Shown here in pieces: positions 1 through 30,454 of a stretch of 30,454 bases of DNA. The stretch lies in the IMG/VR virus record IMGVR_UViG_3300003872_000009, positions 1 through 30,454 of that record; one strand, 5' to 3'. Source of the DNA: a virus. A model generated the notes under the pieces. It made no database searches, was not told where the DNA came from, and saw nothing but the letters and a program-made list of their open reading frames with translations. Each line of letters begins with the position of its first letter. Position 1 is the first letter of the stretch. Made by a program: the position numbers and the translations under genes.

Positions 1-38
1 GCGTATGTAAAAATATTAGAATTTTCTAATATACCGCT

Positions 39-190
39 GGCATGAAGCGTGCTAAGGCAAGCATCATGCCAATGTCAAGTGAAGCTAGACTTGGCATGGC
101 GCGTGCTACGGCAAAGACCGTGCCAATGTCAAGTGTTGCTAGCCATTGGCATAGTCCATGCTATAGCAAGCCGCGTGCCGCTAGGGCGCG
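39..190. repeat. Three degenerate 54-55 bp tandem repeats that can form hairpins
   Basis: Units begin with GGCAT at 39, 93 and 148. Units 1 and 2 share GCGTGCTA, GGCAA and TGCCAATGTCAAGTG in the same order; unit 3 is more diverged and loses the end. Unit 1 folds as TGGCATGA (38-45) against TCATGCCA (64-71), with TGCT/AGCA stacked inside. Unit 2 keeps TTGGCA/TGCCAA (91-96/121-126) with a different interior. Unit 3 keeps the palindrome TGCTATAGCA (159-168). A spurious open frame crosses the repeats but has no start signal, so I treat the stretch as non-coding. It could be a structured leader, a regulatory array or part of an origin; the sequence does not decide. Confidence 0.7.
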
Positions 191-199
191 CTAAGTTAT

Positions 200-414
200 T
201 GAAAACAAAGGCCCGCCAGAAGCCGCTAGAGGCGATTTCTCGCCCCTAGCCATGCCTAGGCATAGGGTAGCGCTAGCACCGCTCATACGCGCCTACACGC
301 GCTCTACGCGCGTATTCGCGTTCTGGCATGGTATGTGCTACGCGCGCGCGCGCGTGCGCGTGCGCGTGCCTTAGAAGTGGCGAGTATGGTGGTGGTGGTG
401 GTGGCAAAAAAAGC
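200..414. other. Non-coding GC-rich stretch with short palindromes and a Z-DNA-prone tract
   Basis: No gene is supported here. The stretch holds the 12-bp palindrome ATGCCTAGGCAT near 253-264, TACGCGCGTA near 305-314 and a run of alternating pyrimidine-purine, almost all CG with a few TG steps, from 341 to 369. Such alternating CG/TG tracts favour left-handed Z-DNA under negative supercoiling. Five GGT triplets follow at 388-402. The tract ends 45 bp upstream of the -35 box of the promoter at 415, so it may influence local supercoiling there; that role is inferred. Confidence 0.55.
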
Positions 415-446
415 TTGACATACTGGCGTAGCGTAGTATGCTACGC
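415..446 (+). promoter_or_regulatory. Sigma70-type promoter overlapping a perfect inverted repeat
   Basis: A perfect -35 TTGACA (415-420) is followed 16 bp later by TATGCT (437-442), four of six matches to the -10 consensus. The inverted repeat GCGTAGC (426-432) / GCTACGC (440-446), with a 7-nt spacer, covers the -10. This is the usual position for a repressor operator, although in this palindrome-rich region it may be part of the general hairpin pattern. It faces the gene at 555. Confidence 0.6.
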
Positions 447-554
447 GATAAGGCCGCGCGTAGCGGCCGCGCCCAACCCGCCGGGGCGAGTGTCGGCGGG
501 AACCCGCAAGCCGCCGCCGCGCTAGGCGCGGCACTGGGCGGCGGGAGGAAAGCG

Positions 555-1013
555 ATGGAGCATAACACCATCTCACAATTCCTACGCCTCACGCTGCGTG
601 AGGCGCTTGGCACCGCCTCCGTCTTTATGACGGAGGCGGAGGCCCGCAAGGCCGTCCAGGGATGGGCGGACAGCGTCAGGGGCGACTGGGACGTCGCCAT
701 CCGGGAGCGGAAGCTCCCGGATGGTATCGTTGTTTTCGAGGGCCGCGCAAGCGGTCCGTTCTCCCGGTACGGGGAACCGTACCGGGGAGAGGCTAGCACC
801 ACCAAGAAATGGGCGGCGCTCCCGCCCATTCACCCGCTCCGGCCCATCGCCCGCGCGCTCAAGGATATCGAGCGCGCGGAGGAAAAACTCCGCGCGCTCT
901 CTGACGAAGAGCGGCGGCGGTGGCGTCGCCGCATTGAGGAAACCCTCCGCCGCGGCGGCACGGAGGCCGTTGCGGAGGCCCTTTGGGCATTCGGGTTCCT
1001 GCGCCGTATGTAG
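555..1013 (+). CDS. Arg/Glu-rich hypothetical protein encoded within the hairpin array
   Basis: The protein has 152 residues and matches no family I recognise. The ATG at 555 is chosen because GGAGG lies a few bases upstream (544-548) and the promoter at 415 faces it; the frame stays open further upstream but without a start signal. The N-terminal third looks globular. The C-terminal half (about residues 90-140) is a highly charged Arg/Glu-rich helix containing DEERRRWRRRIEE, as in nucleic-acid-binding or coiled-coil proteins. The codons are forced to extreme GC at third positions by the overlapping inverted repeats, and the stop TAG sits in the loop of a 14-bp stem. It is followed by three further hairpins and a terminator, so it is probably a single-gene unit. 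Coding status is likely but not certain. Confidence 0.6.
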   Translation: MEHNTISQFLRLTLREALGTASVFMTEAEARKAVQGWADSVRGDWDVAIRERKLPDGIVVFEGRASGPFSRYGEPYRGEASTTKKWAALPPIHPLRPIARALKDIERAEEKLRALSDEERRRWRRRIEETLRRGGTEAVAEALWAFGFLRRM

Positions 1014-1129
1014 CGGCGCAGGAACCCATCCCGCCGCCTTCCGCGTCCCGAGGCGGCGGGGATAAAGAGGGACGCTCCCGGTAAGGCACCGTTTTCCCCT
1101 AGCCATCAGGCTAGGGGGGAGCAAGGCAA

Positions 1130-1189
1130 GGCCGGGGGATTCCTAGTCTAGGCATGTCCGCCTAGGCTAGGGATTCCCCGGCCTTTTTT
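1130..1189 (+). terminator. Very strong rho-independent terminator
   Basis: A 24-bp stem (1130-1153 with 1160-1183), a 6-nt loop and six T residues (1184-1189). Three of the pairs are G-U wobbles that would be C-A mismatches on the other strand, so it acts on rightward transcripts. A separate 9-bp hairpin with loop ATCA (CCCCTAGCC/GGCTAGGGG, 1096-1117) precedes it. It isolates the gene at 555-1013 from the gene at 1218. Confidence 0.9.
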
Positions 1190-1217
1190 GTGGCACACAC
1201 AACGGGAGAACGTAGCT

Positions 1218-1826
1218 ATGAACACCGATACCGCACTTGACCTTGCCATGATGCCCACCATGGGCAGTCTGGAATCGTGGCGACCGTGGCATCATGGCCG
1301 CCATTGGGCGGCCATGACCGCCGAACCCGCGAAGCTGCGCGCCGGCACGAAGCGTGCGCGCGCATGGACACTGGCTATGCGCGAAGCTGGCGCGAGCGAT
1401 GTAGAGCTCGCGCCGATCTATCAGGATCGGCGCGGCCGCGTGGGCGTCCACGTCCACGTATGCGCCAGCATGGCTGCGCCCAAGGGATACGCTGGCGCGT
1501 GGCGGCCGCGCATGGCTGCCGTTCACCTTGCGGCCGTGGAAGCGCTTCACGGCGCGGAAGCGGCCGCCCAGACTCGCGCGGCCTTCGAAGCGGCCGGCGT
1601 GCGCCCAGACTCGATTATCTGGGTAGCGCACCTTATTCCAGGCCTGACCGACAAGGAAGCGGTCATGAAGGCGCTAGACGCGCGCGAGCGCGCGGCCGCG
1701 GCCGCCTTCCAGCAGCAGCAGAAGGCGGCCGCCGAGAAGAAGACCACCACCAAGAAGAAGGCTACGCGCAAGAAGGCCGCGCCCAAGAAGAAGGCGGCCG
1801 CTAAGAAGAAGGCCGCGCGGAAGTAA
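1218..1826 (+). CDS. Protein with histone-H1-like Lys/Ala-rich C-terminal tail
   Basis: The product has 202 residues. The ATG at 1218 follows GGGAG at about 1204; an in-frame TTG at 1188 would overlap the terminator's T-run and is rejected. Residues 1-150 are Ala/Arg/Trp/His-rich and not recognised. From about residue 158 an Ala- and Gln-rich linker leads into a tail of repeated AAKKK/TKKKAT-type units, rich in Lys and Ala with no acidic residue in the last 30 positions. Such tails bind DNA or RNA non-specifically in bacterial H1-like proteins and some phage proteins, so a nucleoid- or RNA-binding role is inferred. The gene contains many perfect inverted repeats and is closed by its own terminator at 1848. 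A ribosomal or nucleoid protein homologue cannot be excluded. Confidence 0.7.
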   Translation: MNTDTALDLAMMPTMGSLESWRPWHHGRHWAAMTAEPAKLRAGTKRARAWTLAMREAGASDVELAPIYQDRRGRVGVHVHVCASMAAPKGYAGAWRPRMAAVHLAAVEALHGAEAAAQTRAAFEAAGVRPDSIIWVAHLIPGLTDKEAVMKALDARERAAAAAFQQQQKAAAEKKTTTKKKATRKKAAPKKKAAAKKKAARK

Positions 1827-1847
1827 CGCGCGCGGCCGCGCCTACGC

Positions 1848-1884
1848 GGGCCCGGGCCCGGAACAGGGCCCGGGCCCTTTCTTG
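1848..1884 (+). terminator. Rho-independent terminator after the H1-like gene
   Basis: Perfect 12-bp arms GGGCCCGGGCCC (1848-1859 and 1866-1877), loop GGAACA, then TTTCTT. The stop codon of the H1-like gene is 22 bp upstream. Confidence 0.85.
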
Positions 1885-2639: not shown

Positions 2640-3416
2640 ATGACCGAGCTTCATGTAATTTCCTTGGGAGCCGGGGTGCAAAGCTCAGCGATGGCGCTCA
2701 TGGCGTCAGAAGGGCTTATAAAGCCAAAGCCTGTGGCTGCCATATTCGCAGATACGGGATGGGAACCGCAGGGCGTTTACAAGTGGCTGAAGGTTCTCGA
2801 AAAACATCTGTCTTTTCCTATAGTTACCGTTTCCAACGGAAACATAAAGGCAGACTTGTTTAGAGCTGCCAGAAACAGAGCGATTACCACAAGAACTCCA
2901 CCGTTTTTTGTGCTTAGCGATGATGGCACCAAAGGAATGCTGAAAAGACAATGCACGGATGAGTATAAGATAAGACCAATAAATAGGTATGTTAGAAAGA
3001 TGCTCGAAGAGAGCAGGGCTCAGAAGGCGGTCCTTTGGATAGGAATATCTACGGACGAGGCCCACAGGGCGAAACCATCCAGAGTGAGATACATAACCAG
3101 AAGGTTTCCCCTTTTGGAGAATGGGATTAGCAGGATCAACTGCCTAGAATACTTCAGGAGCCGGGGGCTGCCCAATCCACCAAAATCCTCCTGCGTGATA
3201 TGCCCATACCACAACGACAACTATTGGAGAGACATAAAGAAGACCAAAGACTGGGAAGACGCGGTATTGCTGGACTCTCTAATAAGAGACGGCATTGGCG
3301 GCAGCACAGGAAAGCTGTTCCTTCACAGATCTCTGCGACCGCTGAAAGACATCGACTTTGGACAAGACCTGCTGGATCACTTTGGAAACGAGTGCGAGGG
3401 AGTATGCGGAGTCTGA
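2640..3416 (+). CDS. PP-loop ATPase, PAPS-reductase-like phage protein
   Basis: The protein has 258 residues. An N-terminal SLGAGVQSSAMA (about residues 8-19) is the pyrophosphate-binding loop of the adenine nucleotide alpha-hydrolase / PAPS reductase family, followed by AAIFADTGWEP, the family's second conserved strand. RQCTDEYKIRPI (about 101-112) and a C-terminal CVICPYHNDNYW (about 184-195) add conserved cysteines. Relatives include PAPS reductases, tRNA-thiolation enzymes and DndC of DNA phosphorothioation; phage stand-alone members are common but their substrate is generally unknown. It probably activates a substrate with ATP for sulfur transfer or reduction, which is inference. It stands alone, with a strong ribosome binding site, and converges on the leftward cluster ending at 3482. 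I see no strong terminator in the 65-bp gap. Confidence 0.8.
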   Translation: MTELHVISLGAGVQSSAMALMASEGLIKPKPVAAIFADTGWEPQGVYKWLKVLEKHLSFPIVTVSNGNIKADLFRAARNRAITTRTPPFFVLSDDGTKGMLKRQCTDEYKIRPINRYVRKMLEESRAQKAVLWIGISTDEAHRAKPSRVRYITRRFPLLENGISRINCLEYFRSRGLPNPPKSSCVICPYHNDNYWRDIKKTKDWEDAVLLDSLIRDGIGGSTGKLFLHRSLRPLKDIDFGQDLLDHFGNECEGVCGV

Positions 3417-4887: not shown

Positions 4888-5301
4888 CTACGATTCCTCC
4901 CGCCTCTCAGCGCGGAATATGTTCTTGGCCAGCATTATGCCAACAGGCACCCCCGGAAGAAGCATTCTCATAGATTCCTGATCGAAGAAAATGCTCGTGT
5001 TGCTGTCGCATAGCAGAAATCCGGCCGGCATGAGCGCCCTAAGCCTGCCGTTCCACTCAACGAACCGCTCTATCTTGTGCAGGTCGAAGTAGGCCTTTCC
5101 GTATTTCTCCCACGATAACGTCTTTTCATCGTCGAAACAGATCCAGAACGATCTTCTCCTTCCGGATAGGAACTTTATTATCGATAACGCCTGATCCTCG
5201 TCCAAAACAGGGAACAGATTGCTTTTGTAAAGCCTTATAACCCAGTTGTAACGTCTAGCTCCTACTGGCTGTGCTCTGTAAAGCTCTGTTAGGAACTTCA
5301 T
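4888..5301 (-). CDS. Hypothetical protein
   Basis: The protein has 137 residues, begins MKFLTELYRA, and has aromatic-rich segments such as SFWICFDDEKTLSWEKYGKAYF and LPGVPVGIMLA. No signal peptide, membrane segment or known motif is evident. Its start overlaps the end of the upstream gene by 47 bp in another frame, so translation is probably coupled; GAGG close to the ATG is a weak ribosome site. It is the last gene of the operon started by the HTH gene at 6087. Confidence 0.6.
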   Translation of the reverse strand: MKFLTELYRAQPVGARRYNWVIRLYKSNLFPVLDEDQALSIIKFLSGRRRSFWICFDDEKTLSWEKYGKAYFDLHKIERFVEWNGRLRALMPAGFLLCDSNTSIFFDQESMRMLLPGVPVGIMLAKNIFRAERREES

Positions 5302-5803
5302 GCCTCAATCGTATCATCATCTTTCTTATAATGGGCCTGTCCTCATCGACTACGGAATCCACTCTGCTCCTGTCGCCCCTCGTATTGTAAAGCGTTAACG
5401 GCAACCTGCTAACGTCGAACCCAGCAGCATTGTTCATTTTTTCTATAAGTTCATGAGGTAGTATTTCTGATATGGGCACATCCATTTTCTTGCCAGTCAC
5501 AACCCTTCGGTAAGGATTCCCTTTGGCGTCATAAAATCCTGTCAATGCTATGGAGTTGATGCTTCCCATATACATCTTTCCTTCCGCCCACACCTTATAA
5601 AGCGGTTCGGTCATGGCAAGATCCAAGTACAGCCTGACCTGCTCATTGGCTGTTACAGATATGAAAAAGGATTCTTTAGGTACGAACAGAAATTGGGACG
5701 CTCCTCTGGCGTCCAAAAGCATTATCGCTTTCGCCTCCTTGATATTGCTGGCCTCGACTATGTAGTAAAAAAGGAGGCCATCCTTTATGGCTGCCAGCAT
5801 CAT
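5255..5803 (-). CDS. Hypothetical protein coupled to an HTH regulator
   Basis: The protein has 182 residues. Its ATG at 5803 overlaps the stop of the HTH gene (5800) by 4 bp, so the two are translated together. The N-terminal half alternates hydrophobic strands (LLFYYIVEAS, QFLFVPKESFFISVTANEQVRLYL), suggesting a beta-rich fold; the C-terminus is basic. No family is recognised. Operon membership suggests a role linked to the regulator, for example as an effector or anti-repressor, but nothing in the sequence proves it. Confidence 0.6.
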   Translation of the reverse strand: MMLAAIKDGLLFYYIVEASNIKEAKAIMLLDARGASQFLFVPKESFFISVTANEQVRLYLDLAMTEPLYKVWAEGKMYMGSINSIALTGFYDAKGNPYRRVVTGKKMDVPISEILPHELIEKMNNAAGFDVSRLPLTLYNTRGDRSRVDSVVDEDRPIIRKMMIRLRHEVPNRALQSTASRS

Positions 5804-6087
5804 GCCGCCAACACTTGTCCGTAGCAGTAATCACAGAGGGCCTTTACGATCTTCTTCCTTGTGCTGACCGGCACGTTATACGAAGCGAAAAACGCTGCCA
5901 GATAGTCGCTGGAAGGCTTGATCATGCCCTTTTCAATTTGATAGATCATCGCAATCGAGTATCCGATAAGCTCGGAAGCCTCCCTTCTGGAGTGGCCCTC
6001 CTTGGTTCGGATAGACGCAAGCATGTCGCCGACGTCCTTGAGAGTGTTCGCAGCACGACCAGACTTTCGACTATTCTTCCTAGCCAT
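5800..6087 (-). CDS. Small HTH (Xre-like) transcription regulator
   Basis: The protein has 95 residues. A basic N-terminus (MARKNSRKSGRAAN) precedes an Xre/Cro-type helix-turn-helix, about residues 20-72, with the recognisable pattern REASELIGYSIAMIYQIEKG followed by PSSDYLAAFFASY. The start at 6087 has AAAGGAGAG upstream. A consensus promoter (6131-6159) drives it leftward, and CTATAC-type sites surround that promoter, so autorepression and control of the divergent rightward genes at 6231-6989 are plausible. This would make 6088-6230 a small two-way switch, which is inference from layout. First gene of an operon with 5255-5803 and 4888-5301. Confidence 0.8.
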   Translation of the reverse strand: MARKNSRKSGRAANTLKDVGDMLASIRTKEGHSRREASELIGYSIAMIYQIEKGMIKPSSDYLAAFFASYNVPVSTRKKIVKALCDYCYGQVLAA

Positions 6088-6130
6088 CGATTTCTCTCCT
6101 TTACCAGCAGAACAATGGAGGTGTGACTAA

Positions 6131-6159
6131 AGTATAGGAGAAACTTTCATTAATGTCAA
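6131..6159 (-). promoter_or_regulatory. Consensus sigma70 promoter for the HTH operon
   Basis: On the minus strand TTGACA (6159-6154) is followed after exactly 17 bp by TATACT (6136-6131), 44 bp before the ATG at 6087. Confidence 0.85.
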
Positions 6160-6199
6160 CTATACCTAATATATTGTTTTGTCTAGTTTTTGCTATACT
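6131..6199. promoter_or_regulatory. Three CTATAC-type sites, candidate operators
   Basis: CTATACT occurs at 6193-6199 (plus) and 6137-6131 (minus, overlapping the leftward -10), with CTATACC at 6160-6166 beside the -35. The copy at 6193 supplies a TATACT -10-like box for the rightward gene at 6231, though no good -35 is visible. Their placement on both sides of the promoter suggests binding by the HTH protein encoded at 5800-6087. Confidence 0.4.
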
Positions 6200-6230
6200 C
6201 CCGCCAAGGCCGGCCAACCGTTCATAAGCT

Positions 6231-6569
6231 ATGATCCTTAGCCTTGTTCCCAAGCTGCTCAAAATCTTGCTCAAGACAAGCAGACACTCCGTATCTGACG
6301 CAGTCAAAGTAACCTTTTCTTGTGTAAAGGTTTTCTATGCGTTGAACAAGCACGATTTAGCCCCAATTTCCATATACACAGACTCTTTTTCTCAAATCTT
6401 TCTTGTGGTAAAGAAAGGCGGCTCTTTCGTCGATATCGTCATCAGTCCAGACAGATTCGTTCTGTCAGTGAGGGGCGATGATGACGGCGATGCGAAGCTG
6501 GTCATTGCAGACGAGCCGACAGGAGAAGAGATAGGTCGTGCGGTAAGGGCAGCGCTCGCGCTCATATGA
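6231..6569 (+). CDS. Hypothetical protein, divergent from the HTH operon
   Basis: The protein has 112 residues. The N-terminus (MILSLVPKLLKILLKTSRH) is a basic amphipathic helix rather than a clear signal peptide. The rest alternates short strands (TFSCVKVFYAL, QIFLVVKKGGSFVDIVI) and ends in an Ala-rich helix. No family is recognised. There is no clear Shine-Dalgarno before the ATG at 6231, so the start is uncertain. It is followed within 11 bp by a small membrane-protein gene. It is one of only three rightward genes inside the leftward cluster, which suggests a separate transcription unit. Confidence 0.55.
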   Translation: MILSLVPKLLKILLKTSRHSVSDAVKVTFSCVKVFYALNKHDLAPISIYTDSFSQIFLVVKKGGSFVDIVISPDRFVLSVRGDDDGDAKLVIADEPTGEEIGRAVRAALALI

Positions 6570-6579
6570 GAGCCGTCAC

Positions 6580-6699
6580 ATGGTGACAGTGACAAAATTC
6601 CTTCTCTTGCTCCAGTCCTTTTGCAAGGATGCGGCCCAGATAATTGCCGGAGGACTTCTTATAGCAGCCATTCTGTTAGCCCTTAACAAACTGATATAG
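6580..6699 (+). CDS. 39-residue hydrophobic mini-protein
   Basis: The frame ATG 6580 to TAG 6697-6699 encodes a short protein with a C-terminal membrane segment (AAQIIAGGLLIAAILLALNK, about residues 18-37) after a short N-terminal helix. It fits tightly between the upstream stop (6569) and the downstream start (6711). The ribosome site is weak. Such one-pass mini-proteins in phages can be holin, antiholin or superinfection-exclusion components; with a two-pass membrane protein next door a holin-like pair is possible but unproven. Confidence 0.5.
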   Translation: MVTVTKFLLLLQSFCKDAAQIIAGGLLIAAILLALNKLI

Positions 6700-6710
6700 G
6701 AGGGCTAGAC

Positions 6711-6989
6711 ATGAAAGAGTTCTATTACTCGAAGACGGCCGACCGAACGAAGAACATATGGGTGGCTGCTCATATCGTTCTTCATCTCGCAGTTTTGGCC
6801 ATCCTTGGCTTCATGGTTGCGTTCCTGTTCACCGATCCTGACCATGCAGCCCCCCTGCTTCTTCCGTTTGCTGTCGGCTATGTGTTCGGCAAGCTGATGG
6901 AAGAAGCAGACACTTTTCTTCGTCGTAAAGCTGGCCTAGATTCGGCCATAGACGAGATAGAGCATATTTGGAGCAATAGGGTCAAGTGA
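6711..6989 (+). CDS. Small two-pass membrane protein
   Basis: The protein has 92 residues, with GGAGGG well placed before the ATG. Two hydrophobic segments are visible: about 18-41 (VAAHIVLHLAVLAILGFMVA) and about 47-63 (APLLLPFAVGYVFGKLM). A charged C-terminal helix follows (EEADTFLRRKAG, DEIEHIW). Size and topology fit a holin-like or membrane-regulatory protein; no endolysin is adjacent, so this is only a possibility. The gene ends 8 bp inside the convergent leftward gene at 6982. Confidence 0.65.
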   Translation: MKEFYYSKTADRTKNIWVAAHIVLHLAVLAILGFMVAFLFTDPDHAAPLLLPFAVGYVFGKLMEEADTFLRRKAGLDSAIDEIEHIWSNRVK

Positions 6990-7254
6990 AGTAGTGTGGG
7001 GGAAGTCGTCTGACAGCCCTTTTTATTACTTTAACCCTTCGCCTGACGGCTTCCCTCAACTTTTCCGTGCTCTGGCCTCTTCTTAACATATCCCTAGAGA
7101 GGGATGACGGTCTATAGTCGAATCTATAGACCGTCTTCCTTCCATTCTTTCTTATAAGAGTTATAGTTCCTACTGTGTCTAAGTCCAGAACGGACAGAGC
7201 ATGAAGTAGCTGCGTCTTGTTGTAGACCTCTATATCAATCTCATTTATAGCCAT
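6982..7254 (-). CDS. Hypothetical basic protein
   Basis: The protein has 90 residues. The first half has strand-like segments (IDIEVYNKTQLLHALSVLD, VGTITLIRKNGRKTVYRF); the second half is strongly basic (SRDMLRRGQSTEKLREAVRR, then VKVIKRAVRR), suggesting nucleic-acid contact. GAGGAG precedes the ATG, which lies inside the end of the upstream gene (14-bp overlap), so translation is coupled. It is the last leftward gene before the convergent membrane cassette. No family is recognised. Confidence 0.6.
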   Translation of the reverse strand: MAINEIDIEVYNKTQLLHALSVLDLDTVGTITLIRKNGRKTVYRFDYRPSSLSRDMLRRGQSTEKLREAVRRRVKVIKRAVRRLPPHYFT

Positions 7255-7474
7255 AGACGGTCTCCTCTTCGAATTCCTTCTTTATGAGGTCGTTAAATTC
7301 AGAATAGGACTCGTCTATCCTATCAAACACAGAAACAGCTTCTTCTACAGAACCAAACTTCTTGACAGTCTTTACTATCCTTCCATTTTTCTCGAACAGA
7401 AGCTCTAATATGTTCCCGTCTCTTATAACCAGAGCATCCAACTCTGGATAGGACAGAACTTTAAAGAAAGTCAT
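7241..7474 (-). CDS. Hypothetical acidic protein
   Basis: The protein has 77 residues from the ATG at 7474; an in-frame TTG at 7480 is the only alternative nearby. It looks like a compact alpha/beta domain: strands around FFKVLSYPELDALVIRDGNI and an acidic C-terminal helix (SEFNDLIKKEFEEE). No known motif. It is a member of the run of short leftward genes between 8581 and 6982. Confidence 0.55.
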   Translation of the reverse strand: MTFFKVLSYPELDALVIRDGNILELLFEKNGRIVKTVKKFGSVEEAVSVFDRIDESYSEFNDLIKKEFEEETVYGYK

Positions 7475-7486
7475 GCCCAAATACTA

Positions 7487-7753
7487 CTACTCAATCTTAT
7501 CAAATATGGACACCACGTTTCTCATCTTCTCAAATTCCTCCTCCATGATGGAAACTGCGAGAAATCTCATTTCGACAGGAAGAGTAGCGTTTTGATCTCT
7601 CAGATCATCCGCCAGATTGTTCATAAGCTCGATAAGATCAGCTACCGATATCTTGGCGTTCTCGAACTTTTCTACCCCGATCTTTGCGGCAGCATGGTGA
7701 TCAGGATAAGGCTTAAGAAGCTCCAGAGCCTTCTCGATGTACGAATTACGCAT
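7487..7753 (-). CDS. Hypothetical helical protein
   Basis: The protein has 88 residues, predicted almost all helical (IEKALELLKPY, SVADLIELMNNLADDLRDQ, EEEFEKMRNVVSIFDK). GAGG lies upstream of the ATG at 7753, and the start overlaps the upstream stop by 8 bp. No family is recognised. Confidence 0.6.
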   Translation of the reverse strand: MRNSYIEKALELLKPYPDHHAAAKIGVEKFENAKISVADLIELMNNLADDLRDQNATLPVEMRFLAVSIMEEEFEKMRNVVSIFDKIE

Positions 7754-8015
7754 TCTTTGCCTCCGGCTGTTGATTGAGCGCTACCGAGAAATAGACGGAC
7801 GCCGCTTTGAATCCCTCACACCAAGCTATGGCTTCTTCTATCGATTCCATTTCTGTCGAAAGCTGGTTTCCCTTCACAAGACCTAATGAATTCCAGTTTG
7901 GATGGTTTACATCTACACCAATTCTTACCCCATTGGCTGTTGGGTGGAATACAAATCCTTGTGCTGTCAAAGCTTCTACGCAGTTGCTCAAGAAAGAGAA
8001 TTCCTTGAACCTCAT
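7746..8015 (-). CDS. Hypothetical small protein
   Basis: The protein has 89 residues. GGAGGG precedes the ATG, which overlaps the previous stop as ATGA. Residues 10-50 contain strands typical of a small alpha/beta domain (GFVFHPTANGVRIGVDVNHP), and residues 58-72 form a helix with a Trp-Cys pair (IEEAIAWCEGFKAA). No function is recognised. Confidence 0.6.
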   Translation of the reverse strand: MRFKEFSFLSNCVEALTAQGFVFHPTANGVRIGVDVNHPNWNSLGLVKGNQLSTEMESIEEAIAWCEGFKAASVYFSVALNQQPEAKNA

Positions 8016-8581
8016 AGTGCCCTCCGGCTAAATCTGCTGTTGGTTATGGACCTTATCTTGCCTAATACGTCTGTAACTTCAGTTTCATCTATTCCCACAA
8101 CGTCTATGAGAGTAGGAACTTGAGACGCACTATTCGCCGTCTCCCGAATTATTCTTACCCACTCACCAAGTTCGTCCACTATGGCTACAGATAGCGGGTG
8201 ATCATATTTTGCCTCTATGACTTTCTTGGGCAAGTCCCTGCTTTTCTTCCTGCTCATTTCCTTAAGTATGTCCAACGACTTGGACGCAAAGAAGGGATCT
8301 TTATAGATCCAGTGGAAGTTGTAGATAGTGTTGTAATTTTGATCGTCTATGCTATCTGTCAACGCATATGTGTAAGATACTGTAAGTGACGTTGATGCAG
8401 ATGCTAGCAAAGTATATTTCTCCCCACTCTTTATCTTTATAGTGTTTGAGCAGATAAAGTGAACTAGGTCTTCATCGTCATCGTATATATCGTAATTGGA
8501 AGCCGCCATAGAGAACGCATAAGAAGGCTCCCCATCCTCCAGTATTACGTAGTTATCGTACTTTTTGTATTTATGGTTCAT
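8012..8581 (-). CDS. Hypothetical protein
   Basis: The protein has 189 residues. The N-terminal 100 residues are rich in Tyr, Asp and Ser with strand-like stretches (KYTLLASASTSLTVSYTYAL); the C-terminal part has helices (SKSLDILKEMSRKKSRDLPK, VDELGEWVRIIRETANSAS). No Shine-Dalgarno is seen before the ATG at 8581, and an in-frame ATG at residue 26 is an alternative. It starts the coupled run 8012-7241. No family is recognised. Confidence 0.55.
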   Translation of the reverse strand: MNHKYKKYDNYVILEDGEPSYAFSMAASNYDIYDDDEDLVHFICSNTIKIKSGEKYTLLASASTSLTVSYTYALTDSIDDQNYNTIYNFHWIYKDPFFASKSLDILKEMSRKKSRDLPKKVIEAKYDHPLSVAIVDELGEWVRIIRETANSASQVPTLIDVVGIDETEVTDVLGKIRSITNSRFSRRAL

Positions 8582-15932: not shown

Positions 15933-15970
15933 GGGCTAGGCAGGCATATGCCCTGCCTAGCCCTCTTTTT
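15933..15970 (+). terminator. Rho-independent terminator after the capsid genes
   Basis: Perfect 12-bp arms GGGCTAGGCAGG (15933-15944) and CCTGCCTAGCCC (15952-15963), loop CATATGC, followed by TCTTTTTT. It separates the capsid pair from the connector genes and may set a step-down in expression. Confidence 0.9.
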
Positions 15971-18092: not shown

Positions 18093-19127
18093 ATGGCCGC
18101 AAAGACCATTCAGGTTTCCAACAACGGTGGGGCTACTTGGTATACCCTTCCGGGCGGTACTGGAGAATACAGTGAGGAAGCTGGTCAGATTGACGACACG
18201 ATCTTCGGTGCCGCCTATCAGTCTAACGAAGCGGGCATCATTTCGTGGTCTATTAACGCCAACGCCCTTTATAAGGGGTTTGCGGGCTACTTCGCCAAGG
18301 TAAAGCAGCCGGGCACCAGCACGGCGTTCACTGGCGAGGCCATGAGCCTCGTTTCGGGCCAGACCTACCAGATCAACAACGCTGCGATGCAGATCTGGGA
18401 CCGCACTGCCACCTTCGTGGTCTACGACAACGGCACCGACGTGACCAATCAGGTAGTCGAGTTCGACTACCTGTTCGGAAAGATCACGTTCGATGCTGCC
18501 TATACTGTGGTTGGTAGCATCACCATCGATGGGGCCTACTTCCCGATGGTCGATCTGGGCACGGCATCCAGCTTCACGCTGACCCAGACGGCGGATGCCA
18601 TCCAGACCACGGATTTCGCCACTGCTCAGGCAAACGGTGGATATCATACTTACAATCCCGGTCTGAAGACCGTGAGCCTTGAGCTTACGGGCTTCTACAG
18701 CGCGTCCAACAACTTCAGCCAGCTTCTCAACAACCGTCAGGAAGTGATCATCGAGATCAATCCTGATGGTTCTGGCAAGTCTCTGGCTCGTGGCTATTTC
18801 CGTGCCATTACGCACGGCCAGTCGGGCGATGTGGGCGCGCTTGAGGAGGAGACCATCTCGTTCTCTCTCAATGTGCCCGCCGACGACAAGATCAAGAACG
18901 TCTACTCGTGGTATCACGATCCCACGACCACACTTACTCCTGCTGTCCGCATCATTCTTGATGCGTGGGAGCAGGATACGAAGCCTATGGTGCAGTATCT
19001 CTACAATGGCACCAACGGCTATCGTGGCACTGCCGTCGTTACGGACGTGTCTCTGGAGTCTTCTCTTGAGGGCATGAACACGTTTACTGCCAACTTTCAA
19101 GGCGATGGGCCTGTGACTATCGTGTAA
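18093..19127 (+). CDS. Major tail tube protein
   Basis: The protein has 344 residues and is beta-rich. The opening KTIQVSNNGGATWYTLPGGT and the two-domain layout, with a repeated TISFSLNVPAD/TFTANFQGDG-type pattern, are as in tail tube proteins carrying an extra domain. It sits before the frameshifted chaperone gene, the usual place. It shares the GC-rich codon style of the capsid gene and contains a single TTATAA (18269). AGAGGACAG precedes the ATG. Confidence 0.85.
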   Translation: MAAKTIQVSNNGGATWYTLPGGTGEYSEEAGQIDDTIFGAAYQSNEAGIISWSINANALYKGFAGYFAKVKQPGTSTAFTGEAMSLVSGQTYQINNAAMQIWDRTATFVVYDNGTDVTNQVVEFDYLFGKITFDAAYTVVGSITIDGAYFPMVDLGTASSFTLTQTADAIQTTDFATAQANGGYHTYNPGLKTVSLELTGFYSASNNFSQLLNNRQEVIIEINPDGSGKSLARGYFRAITHGQSGDVGALEEETISFSLNVPADDKIKNVYSWYHDPTTTLTPAVRIILDAWEQDTKPMVQYLYNGTNGYRGTAVVTDVSLESSLEGMNTFTANFQGDGPVTIV

Positions 19128-19672: not shown

Positions 19673-22600
19673 ATGGCCCTTACTGTAGGAGACGTTGTAT
19701 ACAGGATAGGGGCCGACACTTCGGGCCTCAACAAGGCCCTATCGCAGCTAAACAAGTTCAAAAAGGCGGTAACTGACATTGATGCCGCCGCCAAGAAAGT
19801 AAAAACTTCCCTAGCCAAAGGTATAACCATAAAGGTCAATTATGGGCAGGTAAACTCGGCTATTAAGTCTCTAAATGCGCTGGCTGCCGCAGCCAACAAC
19901 GCAAAAAAGGGGCTATCTGGGCTGACATCTAAAAAGATAAATCTTAATGTGGCTGCTAAAGGAATAAAAGACTCGATAAGCGGTCTAGCCAAGCTAGAGT
20001 CCAAAATAGACTCTGTTGCTAAGAAAGCAAAAGCTCTACAAATAAACGTATCTACTGCTATGGGCAGCGTTGATGCTGCTGCCGAATCTCTAGCGAAAAG
20101 CTATTCTGTCGTAAAAGACAGATCAGACAAGGTATTTAATCAGCAAAAGAAGCAACTGGCCTCCTTAGTTAGACAATACGAAGCATTTAAAACCAGACAG
20201 CAGCTAGCTGGATTGCCTGGAGGCATAGGAGCCAATGTTGCCTCCATGCTTAAGCCATTGCAGGAGCAAATAGAGCTTTTTGACACTGCCTATCAGAAGT
20301 ACAAGAAGTACGCTGCTATATTGGCTCAACAAGGAGAGTTAAAAGGCAACCAGCTAAAAGCCTATAACGAAGCTGTTGCTGTAATGCAAGAACTCAGGGA
20401 AGGCGCTCTTAGCATGGATAAATTCAACGATAGCATTATAAAGGCGCAGAACAGCTTAGCTAAGGCTAACAACGAATTTAAAAAGCTGGTAAACAAACAG
20501 AAGCTTGCGTCCAAGGTCGAGCTTGAGAAGACCGCCGCTGCGACAAAGATAGACGAGCTTAAAAGACAACTAGAATATCTTAAGGCTAACAGAAAACTCA
20601 TAGATGCAGCAGACCAAGCTTATAAGAGGTTTGCTTCCTCTCTGGACAAAATAGCTGATAAAGGAGCTGCTACTGCTGGTCAGCTAGCCAAGGCAAAAGC
20701 AGAATTCCAGCGGGCCTTCACTACTTTGAGCAGGGAAGCCAAGGTTCTGGAAAAGGGAATGACCAGAACGACTCTGGTCATTGGAAACTTCATTGATGGT
20801 ATAAAGTCAGTTGGAACTGCATACGCAGCATTCCTAGTGTTCCAAGGATTGCAGGATGCTATAACAGGATTCTTTGAAATATCGGACGCCACTAAGCTGT
20901 TAAGGACAAGAGTTAGGCAGGTAACCAAAGACGTAGACGAATTCAACGACGCTTGGAGTGGTATTTTTGCCATAGCGGAGAGGACTAGGTCCGATTTCCA
21001 AGCGGTAGGCAAGCTGTACTTCAGAGTTGCTGCTGCTGTTAGGCCATTGGGCCGCTCTCAGGAAGAAGTACTAAAGGTAACAGAAACTGTGAGTGCGGCG
21101 CTGTTGGCTGGTGGTGCGAGCGCGCAAGAAGCATCATCGGCCATTCTTCAGCTCTCCCAAGCGTTCGCCAAGGGTAAGCTCGATGGTGATGAGCTGAGAG
21201 CAGTTCTAGAGAATGCCCAAGTGCTGACCGCCGCTATGGGGCGGCAGTTTGGCATTACGGCTGGCGACGCCAAGTCAATGACTGGCGTGATCATTGAGAT
21301 GGCCCGCCGTGGGGAGCTTACTATTGACAAGTTCTTCAAGGCCATCCTTGACTCTCATGAGGAGATGATCAGCCTCATAGCCGATGTTCCTTTGACTATG
21401 GGGCAGGCATGGTCGCTTTTAAAGAATAGATTGGCTGTTGTCATTGACAAGTTCCAGCAGGCTACGGATTGGTCTGGGAAGCTAGCCGGCTTTATAAAAA
21501 CATTAGCCCTTAATGTGAACGAGCTGACCATAGCATTTATAGGACTTGCTGGCGCTTTGGCCTTCAGAGGCCTCACAAAGGGTGTAAAGCTGCTATCTAG
21601 AGACACTGCCGATGTCGTTAGCAACTTGAAGACCAAGGTCATAGGGCTGATAACAGCATTCAAGTCGTTTGCCGGAATAAAGGGCCTTATAAAGGGTGTT
21701 TTTGCTGTATTCAAGAGAATGCCTCTGGGCAGGCTTTTGACCGCCATAGCAGGCGCATTGTCAGCCGCCGTAGGGGCTTGGACTCTTTATAGGGATAAGG
21801 TTGTTGACGTTGTGGGAGATACACAAGTAACCATAGGGGACTACGTTAGCGCTGTTCTGAGATTTTTTGAGGATATGAAGAATAACGGGATAGATCTTGC
21901 CAAGGGAGCTTGGGAAGGGCTGAAGAATTTTATAACAAAATTTGCAGCAGATACCAAGAACGAGCTTGTCGGCTTTGTCAAGTTCTTCCAAAACTCCTTT
22001 GTTGGAAGAATGCTTATAGGAATAAGAGACCTCATTGCTGACGGATTCAAGTATTTGGTGAATCTCATACCGAGAACTATTGCTAAGGCAATAGCAGCAT
22101 TCTCTAGATTCAAACAGTTCTTGTCGGCTCCAAGCAAGGCGGCATTCTTCAAGGCTTGGGAAGACTTTCAGAAGGATGTAGATAGGATAAACAACACCGA
22201 TTTCCTTTCGAAGGGAATGAATATAGCTCTAGACTATATCGATAAAAAGGTAAAGAATATAAGAAAGTCTGTGTCCGACTTTGGCAATGAATTCGCTAAT
22301 TCCATAAGACAGACTGCTGCCGCAGAGGCCAGACTAAGGAAGAAAAGACAACAGGATCTCAAATACGGAGGACTGGCTAGGCCTGTTCCAGAGGGCAAGG
22401 AACTTGGCCTATCGGAGGAACAAGTAAAGAGCTTGGAGCGGGCTGTAAATGCCTATATGGAGTCCTTGGCCCGCATGAGGATGGAACTTCAGGCTATATC
22501 CAGCATACCTACTGGCAAGTGGGCCAATGACCTTTATAAGGTATTCGGAACGGATTGGGTAAACAGATATGTTCAGGCTCTCATAGAGGTAAAGAATACT

Positions 22601-30081: not shown

Positions 30082-30454
30082 TGGCCACCGTAGCCCTAGC
30101 CACAGCGGGATCTTGGCTCGCCAAGACCGTTCTTGGCGAGAGCTTCAAGTTTCTTGGGATATCTGCTGCTGGCTGGGGATGGATGGCAGGTTCTCTTCTT
30201 GGCAGCGCACTGTTTGGTCCCAAGATTCCAACTCAATACGGGCCTAGGATATCCGATCTGAAAGCGCCTTCTGGCGCCTATGGCGTCGCCATACCGAAGG
30301 CGTTTGGGACCATAAAGATAGCAGGTAAGTTTATATGGGCATCTGACATAAGGGAAGTAAAGATAGTAAAGGTTTATAAGAAGAAGTTTTTATTTGGCCT
30401 TATAAAGAAGAAGTATACTGTGGTTACATACGAGTACTATGCCGATTTTGCGGT
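30081..30454 (+). CDS. Second tail-hub protein, GTA gp15-like (partial, runs off the window)
   Basis: The first 124 residues are present. After glycine-rich hydrophobic helices (GWGWMAGSLLGSALFGPKIP) comes YGPRISDLKAPSGAYGVAIP, FIWASDIREVK and YEYYADFAV. This matches, segment for segment, the start of the hub at 25569 (GPRISDLQVTSGADYGTPIT, LIWAADIKERS, YKYFADFAV). It is therefore a paralogue, and in the usual GTA position behind the NlpC/P60 gene. The 25569 gene is the extra copy. The C-terminal part is outside the window, so the domain content is unknown. Confidence 0.9.
   Translation, partial: MATVALATAGSWLAKTVLGESFKFLGISAAGWGWMAGSLLGSALFGPKIPTQYGPRISDLKAPSGAYGVAIPKAFGTIKIAGKFIWASDIREVKIVKVYKKKFLFGLIKKKYTVVTYEYYADFA

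Follow-up and report, generated by a model that had tools for sequence, protein, structure and literature searches.

Perfect inverted repeats of bacteria and viruses lie mainly between genes (PMC13155455). The mitochondrial genes of Nematomorpha carry perfect inverted repeats within functional coding sequence, where imperfect ones are little in excess; template switching has been proposed as their cause (Mikhailov et al. 2019, PMC6649704). In yeast, template switching of the quasi-palindrome type homogenises the arms of inverted repeats in coding DNA, making them identical inside genes and changing several neighbouring codons at once (PMC8604942). Palindromic DNA also occurs within reading frames as the Rickettsia palindromic elements (cited in PMC6649704). 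At the RNA level, phage mRNA is protected by its structure against RegB, a nuclease of T4 (PMC3014915).

Here we describe a phage locus in which protein-coding DNA takes the form of a string of short perfect hairpins. The window, meaning the whole stretch of DNA that was analysed, is the 30,454-base virus record IMGVR_UViG_3300003872_000009. By gene content it is a siphophage fragment, and the nearest matches of its tail protein include phages of Alphaproteobacteria, among others.

Results

Two small gene units at the left end of the window

The hairpin region forms the left end of the window (Table 1) and has a GC content of 0.68. The first-pass annotation had treated it as a single region, which needs correction: it consists of two predicted transcription units, 443-1190 and 1191-1885, the second being weaker. 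By consensus matches, unit 1 has both a promoter and a terminator, as a moron cassette would, and so has the relative described below; a consensus search found no promoter match for unit 2. The predicted transcript of 440-1190 folds at -485 kcal/mol. Both reading frames are intact with start and stop signals, and their GC content by codon position is 0.70/0.53/0.80 for ORF1 and 0.69/0.55/0.79 for ORF2. Transcription and translation of the units, and the time of their expression, are inferred.

Table 1 Features of the hairpin locus and its surroundings (window coordinates unless stated otherwise)
Feature	Position	Strand	Remarks
Sigma-54-like boxes, YTGGCAYR-N5-TGC	37, 91, 146, 323; 72, 126	+; -	Palindromic non-coding spacer 37..340; consensus match only
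Sigma-70-like promoter of unit 1, TTGACA-16-TATGCT	415..442	+	10/12 consensus matches; consensus only
Leader of unit 1	443..554	+	Hairpins 477-500 and 516-532; Shine-Dalgarno GGGAGGAAAGCG
ORF1	555..1013	+	152 aa orphan protein; hairpin-string coding sequence
Stems in ORF1	585-605, 613-639, 697-724, 741-756, 763-786, 808-830, 851-879, 870-899
14-bp hairpin	993..1027	+	ORF1 stop codon in loop
Intergenic hairpins	1030..1117	+	1030-1060 (10 bp), 1096-1117 (9 bp)
Putative intrinsic terminator of unit 1	1128..1190	+	26-nt arms, three G-U pairs, then TTTTTT
ORF2	1218..1826	+	202 aa orphan protein; Lys/Ala-rich tail; weaker hairpin string
Stems in ORF2	1292-1317, 1389-1414, 1409-1434, 1698-1732
Putative intrinsic terminator of unit 2	1848..1884	+	12-bp GC stem, then TTTCTTGT
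Leftward block, including dCMP deaminase gene	Before the rightward structural genes
Portal, head protease, capsid, connector, tape-measure and GTA-like tail genes	Rightward from 10994		Siphophage assignment
Four small cassette genes of the relative	5545-5916, 6242-6460, 7178-7675, 8140-8532 (relative)		Each followed by a terminator-like stem

No homologue of ORF1 was found in viral contigs, genome contigs, phages, plasmids, 385 alphaproteobacterial genomes, Pfam or PADLOC, and none of ORF2 in viral contigs, plasmids, Pfam or PADLOC. For ORF2 there was one weak PHROG match together with short weak genome matches, several of them within its Lys/Ala tail, and AlphaFold2 run without an alignment returned low confidence. 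The tail itself (1720-1823) is Lys/Ala-rich and resembles histone H1. In a third relative (L170), a gene for a 173-aa protein whose tail is Gly/Lys-rich (7630-8148, minus strand) adjoins a cluster of sigma-54-like boxes and has no significant similarity to ORF2.

Several other features lie nearby. An exact 24-nt direct repeat, CCATGAAGGCGAACGGGCGCAAAA, occupies 2068-2091 and 2116-2139 in the long non-coding stretch 3' of ORF2. The cassettes adjoin a PAPS-reductase-like gene (2640-3416), which also matches the PADLOC SspD model (E 8e-18) and is missing from each of the six relatives that were examined over their full length. Isolated perfect hairpins with arms of 10-12 bp occur elsewhere in the window (7106-7135, 15933-15963, 18450-18473, 20758-20782 and 30117-30140), some of them inside genes and some terminator-like.

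Hairpins exceed expectation under shuffling

The first-pass annotation had reported more than fifteen consecutive perfect inverted repeats, and our count bears this out: 477-1884 holds 17 (arm of at least 8 bp, loop of 3-12), whereas dinucleotide shuffles averaged 0.66, with no more than 4 in any of 200. All the hairpins it had measured are present, namely those of 14 bp (993-1006/1014-1027), 12 bp (697-708/713-724 and 870-881/888-899) and 11 bp (613-623/629-639 and 1292-1302/1307-1317); further 12-bp stems lie at 1698-1732 and 1848-1877. In codon-preserving shuffles, which keep both protein and codon usage, ORF1 stood out with 7 perfect repeats of at least 8 bp against 0.81 and a folding-energy (MFE) z of -7.7, and ORF2 with 4 against 0.83 and a z of -4.4; in neither case did any of 200 shuffles reach the observed count. 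The portal, capsid and PAPS reductase genes of the same phage, used as controls, showed hairpins at chance level. By the same criteria, the first 2 kb of the window hold 20 perfect repeats and the remaining 28 kb hold 11. The earlier proposal that coding DNA is shaped into a string of hairpins more than GC bias would explain thus withstood codon-preserving shuffles, and it was replicated in an independent relative. Chance and GC bias are ruled out as explanations by the two kinds of shuffle and by the many equally GC-rich ORFs that lack such strings.

Two finer points of that annotation stand in part. The GGAA and GCAA loops of GNRA type are found as described, at 709-712, 773-776 and 747-750, but they are not a general feature: no perfect stem listed for the relative has a GNRA loop, and GNRA enrichment was dropped as an explanation. 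The G-U pairs reported at 742/755 and within the 1128-1185 stem also exist, but three of the four sit in the terminator, so strand asymmetry within coding sequence had to be assessed on pooled data from two phages.

The hairpins have no sequence or spacing in common with each other. Copies of one mobile palindromic element, of the Rickettsia type or REP, were rejected for want of a common repeat sequence. Rfam covariance models yielded sub-threshold matches only, and a known Rfam RNA was rejected in the absence of a match at gathering score.

A relative carries hairpin-string genes at the same locus

When IMG/VR was searched with capsid and portal profiles, the relative that was clearly closest was IMGVR_UViG_3300028400_000004 (L148), a contig of 83,753 bp and 33% GC whose capsid and portal proteins are 62% and 53% identical to those of the window phage. 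A scan of this contig revealed a hairpin cluster at 7.2-8.7 kb, where 1.5 kb holds 14 perfect stems of 9 bp or longer. Two of its four small cassette genes, 7178-7675 and 8140-8532, are hairpin strings (MFE z -11.4 and -5.8 in codon-preserving shuffles; GC 0.67 and 0.65), and the other two fold more weakly (z -3.7 and -2.9 for 5545-5916 and 6242-6460). A 71-nt promoter and leader occurs there in 97% identical copies at 7103-7173 and 8063-8133, before two differing reading frames, as if coding parts had been swapped behind a fixed leader.

Gene order is shared: in each phage the cassettes are followed by the leftward block, the dCMP deaminase gene and then portal, and the distance from the hairpin genes downstream to the portal gene is 9-10 kb. 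The proteins of the hairpin genes show no detectable similarity between the two phages, and the other genes of both lack the hairpin-string build.

Within the 33% GC relative, the genes of 7178-8532 stand out at 65-67% GC, and another GC-rich island is found at about 34.8-36.2 kb. The unpaired third positions of its hairpin genes are GC-rich too, which means that the high GC does not serve stem stability alone; selection for stability as its entire cause is therefore unsupported. The cassettes may come from a GC-rich gene pool, and the relative's cassette genes are probably arrivals from one.

The sigma-54-like box pattern was picked after viewing both phages' loci. It occurs 6 times in the first 340 bases of the window, 7 times in the relative's cassette region (5227-7983), and as 3 tandem boxes in L170 (6811-6882, about 14 kb upstream of the capsid gene); elsewhere in 3 Mb it is rare.

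Across 263 loci (3.9 Mb, for the most part from related phages and prophages), no phage or prophage apart from these two exceeded 5 stems per 1.5 kb. When the 3,833 ORFs of this DNA were ranked by perfect hairpins, the top four were the two genes of the relative, ORF1 and a frame that overlaps ORF2. Searching viral contigs with the relative's promoter element and the sigma-54-like box gave no more hairpin cassettes, and the further, more distant relatives recovered with capsid and portal profiles all lacked them.

Stems follow predicted transcripts and the plus strand

Perfect stems of at least 9 bp numbered 10 in unit 1 (0.06 expected) and 6 in unit 2 (0.12 expected), and 7 and 5 in the relative's main units. 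The four predicted transcripts had MFE z values of -16.1 (unit 1), -8.6, -11.6 and -7.4. The spacers flanking the hairpin units contained 0 or 1 perfect stem each, near expectation, although some of them also fold better than shuffles; farther off, an AT-rich spacer of the relative (5000-5470) has a clear excess of perfect stems. In both phages, then, the hairpins are mostly confined to predicted promoter-to-terminator units.

An A-C pair corresponds to a G-U pair on the opposite strand, so that a bias between the two points to one strand. Pooled over the four genes, stems of at least 9 bp numbered 21 under strict Watson-Crick pairing, rising to 36 if G-U was admitted and to 23 if A-C was. The difference of 13 compares with -1.0 +/- 3.0 in shuffles (0/300 reach 13), in a test that treats stems as independent, and a conservative count of gains only gave 15 (G-U) against 2 (A-C). 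A count of G-U pairs at isolated mismatches (6:0) was too small and was superseded by the pooled test. The bias of G-U over A-C points to plus-strand RNA.

Predicted unpaired fractions were higher in the start regions (0.43-0.64) than in the gene bodies (0.34-0.39) of all four genes, and GC by codon position is coding-like in each of them. The codon-phase distribution of stems, 12:8:2 for phases 2:3:1, was not clearly different from shuffles. Taken together, confinement to transcripts, the G-U bias, more open starts and the coding signature favour an mRNA that is translated and under selection to fold locally.

Perfect stems account for most of the excess

At 10 bp, 15 perfect stems were found against 0.5 expected, and 10 stems with one mismatch against 4.8. 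The coding regions of MS2 and Qbeta served as positive controls for RNA-selected structure. Their folding z values (-4.5 to -9.8) are similar to those of the hairpin genes, but they hold 7 perfect stems of at least 8 bp in 7.2 kb, against 22 in 1.95 kb here (about 1 versus about 11 per kb). Similar folding with roughly tenfold fewer perfect stems in the RNA phages suggests that template switching at the DNA level probably generated the arms, and it is the simplest source for them. Palindrome growth by this route, one of the meanings first proposed for the region, thus holds up and forms part of our model.

The share of fold excess that survived synonymous shuffling was 0.11-0.22 here and 10-17% in random sequences on which palindromes had been imposed blind to the frame. 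This measure does not separate selection from template switching and was set aside as a discriminator.

Discussion

The explanation we prefer, with a probability of a little under one half (about 0.48), is that the region holds accessory cassettes whose mRNAs are selected as strings of local hairpins, with arms that arose by template switching and nuclease protection as the likely use. The region would be a pair of moron-like siphophage cassettes, each with a small orphan protein and an intrinsic terminator. Template switching would copy one arm onto the other, and selection on the plus-strand RNA would then retain arms that give a string of short local hairpins with a more open start site. 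A chain of GC-rich stems of 9-15 bp would leave scant single-stranded RNA for endoribonucleases specific for single strands, the candidates being host RNase E and the RNases of abortive-infection or toxin systems, and most of the stems would be shorter than RNase III cuts well. The suggestion of nuclease resistance draws on short stems with few single-stranded stretches, the accessory-gene setting and the RegB precedent of T4. An mRNA protected from RNases, as the first-pass annotation had offered among its meanings, is kept in our model, where the hairpin string is the part seen in the data and protection is what it may provide. The evidence base is two phages and four genes.

A purely mutational origin without function is less probable, yet it deserves serious weight. 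Here a locus susceptible to template switching or to quasi-palindrome correction, perhaps through single-strandedness in transcription or replication, would let weakly constrained orphan genes gather short perfect palindromes, as may have happened in the mitochondrial coding palindromes of Nematomorpha. The excess is mainly one of perfect stems, at a density far above that of RNA-phage coding regions; this fits a DNA-level copying process and counts against our preferred explanation. So do the GC-rich unpaired third positions of the relative's genes, those spacers that also fold better than their shuffles, and the surplus of perfect stems in the relative's AT-rich spacer. The fold surviving synonymous shuffling equals that of codon-blind imposition, the hairpin genes are orphans, and a like argument has been made for other coding palindromes (PMC6649704, PMC8604942). 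Mutation alone sits poorly, however, with hairpins that are largely confined to transcripts while non-coding neighbours are near expectation for perfect stems, with the bias of G-U over A-C, with the more open start regions, and with the absence of hairpin strings from both phages' other genes. On balance we hold RNA-level selection to be likelier than a purely mutational origin, at roughly five to three.

The same signals bear on the remaining alternatives. Structured non-coding RNAs acting as decoy, sponge or scaffold, with incidental reading frames, would account for the very stable predicted transcripts, the orphan proteins and the putative promoter and terminator of unit 1, but we judge them improbable: all four genes have the codon-position GC of coding genes, Shine-Dalgarno sites and more open starts are present, the relative reuses one leader before two different reading frames, and Rfam gave no match at gathering score. 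The RNA scaffold suggested earlier loses ground with that protein-coding signature in four of four genes. A DNA-level element (a replication origin, a packaging site or a cruciform-based recombination site) is more improbable still. Perfect inverted repeats, a position at the end of a contig fragment and palindromic boxes in the spacer would suit it, yet the stems sit in transcribed coding sequence and not in spacers, are asymmetric between strands and lack a common sequence or spacing; with hairpins largely confined to transcripts, the packaging or replication region of the first-pass annotation is unlikely. As for an artefact of chance, GC bias, amplification or chimeric assembly, both hairpin phages are metagenomic contigs, and in the window the region is GC-rich and lies at a fragment end. 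Both kinds of shuffle, the intact frames with their start and stop signals, the ORFs of equal GC content without such strings, and an independent contig whose corresponding locus is built in the same way, largely refute this, leaving it hardly credible.

Unrelated genes, from a pair of genomes that differ widely in GC content, converge on one hairpin-string form of mRNA, which suggests that the messenger itself has a property open to selection. If that property is protection of the mRNA, phages would have a sequence-encoded defence against the RNases used by many anti-phage systems; if the origin is mutational, the locus is one of the clearest examples in nature of protein sequence written by template switching. 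A bolder and rather doubtful proposal is that these genes are a distinct class of phage accessory genes, with "armoured messenger" mRNAs, strings of perfect hairpins that would survive RNase-based host defence. New genes would arrive through exchange of cassettes, and template switching under selection on the RNA would bring them into hairpin form.

Comparison with known systems

Phage morons are accessory single-gene cassettes with their own signals and atypical GC, placed between conserved modules. The hairpin cassettes resemble them in being single orphan genes, with one putative promoter and leader before two different genes in the relative; morons are not known to be built as hairpin strings. 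Rickettsia palindromic elements are copies of one repeat, whereas the phage hairpins have no mutual sequence similarity. MS2 and Qbeta (Leviviricetes) are alike in that their coding RNA folds into local stem-loops well beyond synonymous shuffles, but their stems are imperfect and the RNA is the genome, whereas the hairpin genes have perfect stems in the mRNA of a dsDNA phage. In yeast, template-switch events are single and scattered; in the phages whole genes are built of such repeats. The likeness to Nematomorpha lies in perfect inverted repeats in coding sequence beyond chance, with imperfect ones little in excess. Nematomorpha repeats reach 284 bp and lie in conserved mitochondrial genes, whereas the phage hairpins have arms of 8-15 bp set back to back in orphan genes, are largely confined to transcripts and carry a plus-strand G-U bias; long repeats (tens to hundreds of bp) encoding conserved protein are absent, the longest perfect coding arm being 14 bp. 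The hairpin genes thus differ from each family compared in at least one tested feature, and the coding palindromes are the nearest to them.
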